39,985 nucleotides of DNA, from assembly GCA_031288285.1 (NCBI GenBank), contig JAITRQ010000003.1:1-39985 (forward strand), given 5' to 3'. Below are positions 1-39,985 of this stretch, in pieces. Source of the DNA: Mycoplasmataceae bacterium (GTDB lineage Bacteria > Bacillota_I > Bacilli_A > Mycoplasmatales > Mycoplasmoidaceae). The position numbers and the translations under genes are program-made. The stretch's first letter is position 1. The number at the start of each line of letters is the position of its first letter. The notes beneath the pieces were generated by a model, which was not told the origin of the DNA, ran no database searches, and was given only the letters and a program-made list of their open reading frames with translations.

Positions 1-51
1 TTTTTTTTTTTTTTTGAAGTTATAATTTATTCATGATTTTAGATAGTCTTT

Positions 52-68
52 CACACACACACACACAC
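52..68 (+). repeat. CA dinucleotide microsatellite, 8 units
   Basis: (CA)8C lies between the -10 box and the start codon of the surface protein gene. The homologous leader at 39672-39704 has (CA)16C, exactly twice the unit number, while the flanking bases are almost identical. Confidence 0.9.
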
Positions 69-100
69 TTGCGAATTAAGTAAGTTAATTTTTTCAACAC

Positions 101-134
101 AAACAAAGTGGTCTAACCGACTACTTTGTTTTTT
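101..134 (+). terminator. Terminator-like leader hairpin (possible attenuator)
   Basis: The arms 101-113 and 119-131 form a 13-bp stem with one G-U pair and a 5-base loop (114-118), followed by a T run (129-134). This is the form of a Rho-independent terminator, yet it lies between the promoter and the start codon of the gene. It is conserved in the second family member, where the only change is in the loop. Confidence 0.65.
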
Positions 135-167: not shown

Positions 168-2267
168 ATGAAGAAATTTTCATTTAAAAAACTCACAACC
201 ATTTCACTATTCTTTACTAGTATCATTTTCACATCCGCATTTACTACTTATTTCATTCCTATAGTTTCAACTAGTCACTCTAGTGATCAACCTAATGCTA
301 CAAAAATTGATTTACATGATTACGACGGAAAAACTTTACCCGAATTTTATAAACCCGAACCCTTGGATAATATTAAGGAAATCCTAATAGGACAATTAGA
401 AAATATCGAATCAACTCGGCCTGTTGGATGAGAAGATTGAAAATGTTATCCAAATCAATTTGAAGATTTCGTTCCCACACTTATTGATACTGGTGGTAGT
501 TTTACATTAACTGCCAAAACTAATGCTGTCAACTACGTTGGTAGTAGTACTGCCACGATTTCCTTTAACTACACTAATTATTCTAAAACTGATATATCCA
601 CAATTATTACTCAACCCATGTTAAATACAACTATTGACTATGACTTGTGAAATAACAGCACATTATCTAAACAATATATTTTGTCCCAGTTCAAACAAAT
701 GTATCCGATACTAGATACAAATGAATTAGATATTACTGCTGATTATTCATCTGATGCTGTATTAAAATCGGGTATTGGTACTGCTACAATTAGTGCTAAA
801 AGCGGATCTTTAATATACACACCAAGTTCAATAGATGTGCAATTTCACTTCAAACCGCGATTAGATTTAATTTTAGTTAATGTGAATAAAATTCAAATAG
901 CACACCAATGATATTCGGGCTTTACTACACATATAGATGAAATTAAATTTTCAATTTATTCTGCCAATCTTTCAAGAATTAATGTTTTCGACAGTTTTAG
1001 TGATTCTATAACAGTACTATTAGAAGACAATGGTGATGAAAACAATTCATATCTTGAAGTGTCACCAATTGTAAATGGAATCTTTTATTTTCGTACTGGT
1101 CAAAATTTGGATGTTAATTGTTATCCCAAATTAACAAGCGATTACAAACCAATTCCAATTAGTTGAATTGATTATGATGAAGACAGTAGAACTATTAATG
1201 GCTTGAAAAGTGATGTGCAGTTTACTGATCAATACGATACATTGGACTTGTCGAGTTTTTCAGAATGTACCACTATTGCGAATAGCGCATTTATCTGTGA
1301 AGGTTCAACTGCAAAATATGTTTTAAATAAACAGTTTTTTGGTTCAACTGCAATTTATGTAAGTGGATCTAAAAATTATTTTGATGGCAATGGTAATTTA
1401 TCAATTGTTCACAATCAATCACTTGATGGCCCTATTAAATATTTATTTTTACCTGATTCGCTTATTACCATAGGAGAAAGAGCGTTTCGATTAGCATATT
1501 CATTTGATTCTTTGCTAATTTTTCCAAAAAATTTAACATTTTTACCAGGATACTGCTTAAACTTTATTGGATTCACATCAATTTGGATTAATGAAAATTA
1601 CGCTTCGCAGCCCATTAATACTTACTCTGTAATTTTTTCTCCATTTTTGTTGTGTATGGGAATGGATCATAATAATTCTGCATTTACTTTCTATTATCAT
1701 TATGATAAATCTAATGTTGCTAATGGGTGAATGATTTATCCATCAAAATATGCCTTAACTCAAATTGGCACATCCGGATATTATTTGTCTGACGGAGATA
1801 GTAATAATAATAAAATGGGTTTTGGACAGAAACCAGTATTAGCATTAGGCGTAATTGATATGCGCAACATGCTAGATTACACTAAAAAATGAGATGGTAC
1901 AGAGCGAATTGGTGTTGATACTAGTTCCTATACTTTTTATGATTCATTTACAAGTGATGGTTTTTTTGTTCATAATAATGCTACTGAAGTTATTTTGCCT
2001 AGTGAATATACAACTTGGACATCAGTATCCATGCGTGCTCCATCTCTTTTAACTGCTTTCTGGGTAACTGATACGCAGAATGTATTACAACCGACTAACT
2101 TTGAATTAGCAAATCGAGACAAATATAATGGTAGTGAATTTGCGTGATGCAATTTCGTTTTACACGTACCGAACGCATTACTAAACAACTATCTGTCTAT
2201 TTGGGAAAATATGATTTCAGGCACGCAAAGTTTATCTATTATTGGTGATGCTGATTTGATAATTTAA
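168..2267 (+). CDS. Surface/secreted protein with BspA-like LRR region, variable family
   Basis: The frame is 699 aa long with several TGA-Trp codons. The N-terminus (about 1-38) has Lys-rich residues, then about 25 hydrophobic residues, so it is a Sec signal peptide or membrane anchor. There is no lipobox Cys, so it is not a typical lipoprotein. Two related beta-rich modules are visible at about 105-137 (core FTLTAKTNAVNYVGS) and 185-225 (core GTATISAKSGSLIYT). They resemble repeats in mollicute surface proteins. Around 420-475 a BspA/LRR_5-like pattern occurs (LPDSLITIGERAF, then FPKNLTFLPGYCL). The protein is likely exported and displayed; adhesion or host interaction is inferred. The signal peptide is shared with the partial gene at 39804, and the two diverge soon after it. 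Expression is probably controlled by the T/CA tracts and leader hairpin upstream. It stands alone and is followed by 162 bp of non-coding DNA. Confidence 0.8.
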
Positions 2268-39546: not shown

Positions 39547-39666
39547 GGATAAAAGTGGATACGATTATCGGATAATTTGACGGAATAATCCATTAATGCA
39601 TTATTGTAAAAACTGTATCTTTTTTTTTTTTTTTTGAAGTTATAATTTATTCATGTTTTTAAGTAG

Positions 39667-39708
<42 letters not shown>

Positions 39709-39736
39709 GAATTAAGTAAGTTAATTTTTTCAACAC

Positions 39737-39770
39737 AAACAAAGTGGTCCAACCGACTACTTTGTTTTTT
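39737..39770 (+). terminator. Terminator-like leader hairpin, second copy
   Basis: The stem arms 39737-39749 and 39755-39767 and the T-run are the same as at 101-134; only the loop differs (CAACC against TAACC). Conservation of stem and T-run with a changed loop fits selection on structure. Confidence 0.65.
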
Positions 39771-39803: not shown

Positions 39804-39985
39804 ATGAAGAAATTTTCATTTAAAAAACTCATAACTGTTTCACTATTTTTTACTAGTGTGATTTTTACATCCGCATTTACTACTTGTTTCATTCCTATAG
39901 TTTCAACTAGTCATTCTAATGAACAACCTAATGCCACAAAAATTGATTTAAATGATTACAACAATAAAACTTTACCTAAACCATT
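39804..39985 (+). CDS. Surface protein family member 2, partial (cut by window end)
   Basis: The first 60 codons are visible. The signal region MKKFSFKKLITVSLFFTSVI and the following FTSAFTT.FIPIVSTS are almost the same as in the gene at 168, with about five changes. The next segment NATKIDL.DY..KTLP is still alike, then the two diverge. It is thus a paralogue in the same orientation about 39.6 kb away. Its C-terminal domains cannot be seen. Expression is probably governed by the same kind of T/CA leader. Confidence 0.8.
   Translation, partial: MKKFSFKKLITVSLFFTSVIFTSAFTTCFIPIVSTSHSNEQPNATKIDLNDYNNKTLPKP

Follow-up and report, generated by a model that had tools for sequence, protein, structure and literature searches.

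For each member of a surface protein gene family in the window (the whole stretch of DNA analysed, 39,985 nucleotides), we consider it reasonably probable, on sequence grounds, that expression is controlled by two elements in series, a T-tract promoter and a CA-repeat leader attenuator. The initial annotation had proposed a phase-variable surface gene family, a proposal favoured by the architecture of the loci, by its recurrence in sister species and by a T-tract assembled at both T16 and T17, all of which is sequence evidence. The window corresponds to the whole of contig C16 in a genome of 534,199 bases and 17 contigs (label G000) from an uncultured, wall-less bacterium. In this genome TGA was assigned to tryptophan because long open reading frames (ORFs) require it and because there is a tRNA whose anticodon is TCA. 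In a comparison of ObgE, the best named relatives were Mycoplasmataceae MAGs, with an identity of 65% at most; many of them come from termite guts according to our reading of the isolate codes. Labels such as G009, G022, G023 and G024 denote genomes within the same genus, C a contig and L a locus.

Organization of the two copies in the window

All features of both copies lie on the forward strand. In copy 1 the promoter T-tract (1..15) is cut by the contig end, since the window is a whole contig, and its length is therefore given as at least 15 nt. Downstream are the -10 box TATAAT (21..26), conserved among the copies of this type (class 1, below), a leader ORF (MILDSLSHTHTHLRIK, then stop; 33..83) whose ATG lies 6 nt past the -10 box and which spans the (CA)8C tract (52..68), an intrinsic-terminator-like hairpin with a T tail (101..131; stem of -15.7 kcal/mol), and a gene for a surface or secreted protein of 699 aa, with TGA read as tryptophan (168..2267). 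Copy 2 has a conserved -35-like element, TAAAAACTGTATC (39607..39619), upstream of a T16 tract (39620..39635), then the -10 box TATAAT (39641..39646) and a leader ORF reading MFLSSLS(HT)nLAN before its stop (39653..39715), which is in an early-stop frame at n = 16 and contains the (CA)16C tract (39672..39704). The counterpart of the copy 1 hairpin follows, with 13 pairs and a T tail (39737..39767; 1 found against 0.2 expected in shuffled sequence), and then the second family member (39804..39985), which continues past the contig end.

The upstream regions of the two copies are 89% identical across 356 nt and differ in tract length, (CA)8C against (CA)16C and T of at least 15 against T16, just as the initial annotation described. 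The T-run was also said to sit directly before TATAAT; it does lie just before this box, but the two do not adjoin, as the five nucleotides GAAGT separate them. The 699-aa protein had no Pfam domain match, and it carries Y in place of the C of the FTTC motif known from other members. Pfam domains LRR_5 or Laminin_G_3 are present in some family members or relatives.

T-tract promoters and tract-length variation

Long A/T runs are strongly over-represented in this genome. There are 141 runs of length 8, 8 of length 9, none of 10-13 and 28 of 14-17, where extrapolation of run lengths predicts 0.5-0.8 runs of at least 14 nt. A -10-like box lies 4-5 nt downstream of 19 of these 28 tracts, chiefly before surface or lipoprotein genes, and a conserved TAAAAAnTGTnTC is found just 5' of most T-tracts. 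The 19 promoter tracts comprise eight of the CA-leader type (class 1), ten of a second class with GAGATATATTTAACC-type sequence, mostly ahead of lipoproteins with a clear Cys motif and without a CA leader, and one before a cytosolic-looking gene. When the pattern T12-G-N1-6-TATAAT was searched in 298 genomes of the order, the top counts were those of this genome (8) and G009 (7), compared with about 9 summed over all 298 genomes for the reversed-pattern control; a search of named genomes with the promoter pattern gave no match.

T-tract promoters of similar layout (T14-21) precede unrelated surface genes in G009 and G022, neither of which shows a CA leader there. At least 14 paralogues in G022 start with MKKIKTINKLLSSLTLLSPL, each behind TTGCG-T15..21-G-TTAAAAT or TATAAT, and T16 would give a spacer of about 17 nt between the TTGCG element and the -10 box, which fits a promoter-spacer layout. 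Six or seven different surface genes in G009 lie behind T14-19-GA-TATAAT with their own ATG or GTG 6-9 nt after the -10 box, so that starts this close to the promoter are probably in use in the genus. The role of promoter spacer originally attributed to the T-run agrees with G022 but less well with this genome: at T16, 22-23 nt separate the conserved TTGTGT/CTGTAT element from the -10 box instead of the standard 17, and a comparable T-tract, that of Mycoplasma agalactiae vpma, was found not to switch. As in the vlp and maa2 systems, a homopolymer is present just upstream of the -10 box of surface genes, both here and in relatives, and slippage of the promoter T-tract is a plausible prediction for this genome.

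Differences in length are visible in the assembly. An end-to-end overlap of 220 nt links contigs C3 and C10, and the only difference within it is T17 against T16, so that the assembly contains a single T-tract at two lengths. The tract in question adjoins a tRNA gene, not a -10 box. Three contigs (C14, C15 and C16) end inside T15 tracts, and one contig end falls within a (TA)n tract. The T16/T17 difference and the contig breaks may reflect biological variation or read stutter, the tract lengths being those of a metagenome assembly to which sequencing stutter may contribute. The number of CA units also differs among paralogues, from 8 to 19 here and from 9 to 26 in relatives.

Other tracts were noted in passing. 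A (TA)14-15 repeat, at which the contig breaks (G000:C7:115030 and C2:1; L103, L129), lies in an ORF with a PPCQG cytosine-methyltransferase-like motif, possibly a phase-variable methyltransferase. A 354-aa membrane-protein-like ORF (G000:C12:47959; L106) carries a C10/G10 tract at residue 32, which makes translational phase variation of this product, possibly an acyltransferase, a possibility. A T17 promoter in G009 precedes a surface gene that is out of frame at 28 aa and whose signal-peptide codons include a G8 tract (L276, contig C11), a second case of one gene with two slippage tracts. G8 and G9 tracts lie just 5' of TATAAT or TATATT in a promoter-like arrangement (L313 on G023:C7; L050 on G019:C85), one of them in a CA leader. 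Many T15-20 tracts of G025 are followed by GCAACAAATTTG (L299-L308); they belong to a repeated element and are apparently not promoters.

The CA tract as part of a predicted leader attenuator

The initial annotation placed the CA tract in untranslated RNA. This is probably wrong: most likely the tract is part of a translated leader ORF that precedes an intrinsic terminator, and it probably serves as the switch in leader-peptide attenuation. The genome has eight (CA)≥8 tracts (8, 12, 14, 14, 14, 15, 16 and 19 units), every one within a class-1 leader, in which an ATG exactly 6 nt after the -10 box opens an ORF through the CA tract. At this distance the RNA would begin at or beside the ATG; the leader ORF has no Shine-Dalgarno site. 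Between the CA tract and the gene lies the 13-pair hairpin with its T tail, as in an intrinsic terminator. Stems at or below -7 kcal/mol occurred in 6 of 174 intergenic 100-nt upstream windows, the three strongest being class-1 leaders, and 3 of the 171 other upstream windows have a terminator-like stem. The fold of the whole leader was moderately stable (z -1.76). Rfam gave only sub-threshold noise for the leader, and a search of viral contigs with it gave no match.

The same order recurs in unrelated sequence in relatives. Among 36 genomes of the genus, 46 (CA)≥8 sites were found in 11, many of them in a transposon-like repeat. We excluded from the leader count the CA tracts of G021, G027 and some of G023, which belong to this repeat, and two loci with the tract within the gene itself (L378, L381), leaving 19 leader-type loci in three species (5 here, 13 in G023 and 1 in G024). 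The loci of G023 and G024, mostly without a T-tract, show a -10 box, an ATG, (CA)n, a terminator-like stem, a Shine-Dalgarno sequence and a surface or lipoprotein gene. A terminator-like stem separates tract and gene in 19/19 leaders, at or below -7 kcal/mol in 18/19, and the ATG lies 6-12 nt after the -10 box. At 21/21 loci, L378 and L381 included, an ATG no more than 12 nt from the -10 box opens a frame into the tract, against 3.5 expected from shuffles. In these two loci (G023 and G125) the (CA)n stands right after the genes' own start codons, as in ordinary translational phase variation, and the CA leaders may have evolved from genes of this type. The transposon-like repeat, TAACTATTCACCG...(CA)n...AAAATCA with inverted GGTGAATAGTTA (for example L333, L350-L353 and, on the minus strand, L356), is a separate home of CA repeats in the genus.

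We computed the consequences of repeat number for the leader frame. Repeat count toggles between an early stop and reading into or through the stem in 19/19 leaders, although the combination of one early-stop and one through frame is fairly frequent by chance in AT-rich sequence. In copy 1 the stop falls 19 nt short of the stem with n = 7 and 15 nt short of it with n = 8, and with n = 9 the frame passes through; in copy 2, n = 15 passes through and n = 16 and 17 stop early. The gap from early stop to stem is 15-19 nt here and 19-30 nt in relatives. As assembled, 17/19 leaders are in the early-stop state, against 9.3 expected with random frames (P = 1.3e-4), and without this genome 12/14 against 6 (P = 8e-4); both P values are too small because paralogous leaders share descent (perhaps six or seven lineages) and are not independent, and we regard the excess as suggestive. 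The copies on C14 and C3 carry a one-base indel beside the tract that holds the early-stop state despite the repeat number.

We hypothesise the following mechanism. A change in length of the T14-17 tract, 5 nt before the -10 box, would modulate transcription initiation. The transcript would start at or a few nucleotides before the AUG of the short leader ORF containing (CA)n; this ORF would be translated, and gain or loss of one CA would shift its reading frame. In two frames out of three (in relatives, one or two), translation would stop 15-19 nt before the terminator here, the hairpin would be free to fold and transcription would end before the surface gene (OFF). With the third, the ribosome would traverse the terminator and block its folding, and the surface gene would be transcribed (ON). 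Both tracts would switch length in vivo. Leader-peptide attenuation also operates at E. coli pyrBI. As at trp and pyrBI, the position of the ribosome on the leader peptide would decide terminator formation; those systems respond to metabolites, whereas here the repeat number would set the frame. The trp case is discussed in PMC3894217.

Several other ideas and loci deserve mention. Attenuation by His/Thr starvation (hisL/thrL-like) was dropped, since every frame of (CA)n reads His-Thr and the codons are uninformative. For an antiterminator pairing between CA tract and terminator arm we found by eye just a 5-bp complement (CACTT/AAGTG), broken in the C14 copy, and rejected it. DNA inversion as the switch was set aside, although an inverted leader pair does occur on C10: two class-1 leaders, each with its T-tract and CA tract intact, stand head to head (G000:C10:39074-39356; L112) and, without an intervening gene, meet at a degenerate hairpin. 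Together they form a near-palindrome of some 280 bp, which may have arisen by rearrangement or be an artefact of assembly. A further class-1 leader (G000:C12:24775-24887; L105) has T6 only and an altered -10 box, ends before the terminator and has no gene; it is apparently a decayed copy.

Known systems and alternative explanations

A repeat-driven attenuator of this kind has been proven in Streptococcus gallolyticus, where the number of GCAGA repeats in a leader ORF controls transcription of the pil1 pilus (Danne et al. 2014, PMC3894217). An ORF stop well before the premature terminator gives low expression and one near, in or beyond it high expression, in a translation-dependent manner, and isolates with low or heterogeneous expression have an early-stop gap of at least 28 nt (PMC3894217). 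The gap in our leaders is mostly shorter, so the OFF state may be leaky; a stop codon represses a terminator that follows closely, and efficiency returns as the distance between them grows (PMC4824070). The initial annotation took the CA tract for a second variable element not known to have been described. We found no literature report of a leader-ORF repeat attenuator in mycoplasmas, but the mechanism itself has this precedent. Our loci resemble pil1/pil3 in the order of promoter, repeat-bearing leader ORF, intrinsic terminator (predicted here) and surface genes, in the computed movement of the stop from before the terminator to in or past it, and in the presence of more than one locus per genome. 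They differ in having a CA dinucleotide in a near-leaderless ORF instead of a GCAGA pentamer and an RBS, in number (at least 13 loci in one relative, G023, against 2), in being stacked on a T-tract promoter, in the shorter gap and in being known from sequence. By analogy, a pil1-type mechanism with a dinucleotide repeat probably operates in Mycoplasmatales, in this genome on top of a T-tract promoter, and could switch surface genes randomly.

For the promoter, slippage of the spacer is reported to switch vlp of M. hyorhinis, maa2 of M. arthritidis and vmm of M. mycoides (PMC2268961, PMC10502178). In those systems as in our loci, the promoters of surface lipoprotein genes have a simple repeat separating a -35-like element from the -10 box, in vlp within a multigene family. 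The differences lie in the repeat (poly-A in vlp and a dinucleotide in vmm, a T-tract here) and in the -35-like spacing (22-23 nt here), and the accounts consulted mention no leader attenuator. The M. agalactiae vpma promoter has a T-tract immediately 5' of the -10 box of a surface lipoprotein gene, as here, and this tract was shown not to switch (PMC2268961); there a single promoter is served by Xer1 inversions, whereas here there are many separate promoters.

Switching by the promoter T-tract alone, as in vlp or maa2, with the CA tract and hairpin passive and copied along by gene duplication, is in our judgement an unlikely but real competitor. The reported spacer slippage in vlp, maa2 and vmm speaks for it, as do the T-tract promoters without a CA leader in class 2, G022 and G009; it does not, however, account for the recurrence of CA tract, ORF and terminator in G023 and G024, where the sequence is unrelated and a T-tract mostly absent, and terminators are otherwise very seldom found between a gene and its own promoter. 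We give still less credence to an effect of CA tract and hairpin on mRNA stability or translation through structure, spacing or protein binding, graded by CA length. Hairpins in 5' leaders can stabilise mRNA and the merely moderate stability of the whole-leader fold is compatible with such a role, but the T-run after the hairpin is that of an intrinsic terminator, and the ATG open into the CA tract and the frame bias would be left unexplained. That there is no phase variation at all, with fixed lengths and a T-tract that serves the promoter statically, as a UP-like element or as curved DNA, seems very improbable. The behaviour of vpma, the tight clustering of tracts at 14-17 and the absence from this genome of a -35-like element with standard spacing would agree with it; the T16/T17 double assembly, the contig ends within tracts, the range of T15-21 among G022 paralogues and that of 8-26 CA units among leaders all argue against it.

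With control by promoter and attenuator in series as our preferred reading, we tentatively propose, as a possibility somewhat short of an even chance, that a termite-gut mollicute genus independently evolved phase-variable CA attenuators at multiple loci, here each behind a phase-variable T-tract, which would form a two-input stochastic AND switch for one surface-gene family. Repeat-driven leader attenuators have been reported for streptococcal pili, and the presence of their layout at numerous loci of distant bacteria with reduced genomes would mark it as a recurrent means of randomising surface proteins. It leaves a searchable signature, namely a near-leaderless ATG, a short repeat, a terminator and a surface gene. 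Two switches in series, if true, would let the frequency of the ON state and its amplitude evolve separately, and strong surface variation is suggested for insect-gut symbionts too, beyond vertebrate pathogens.
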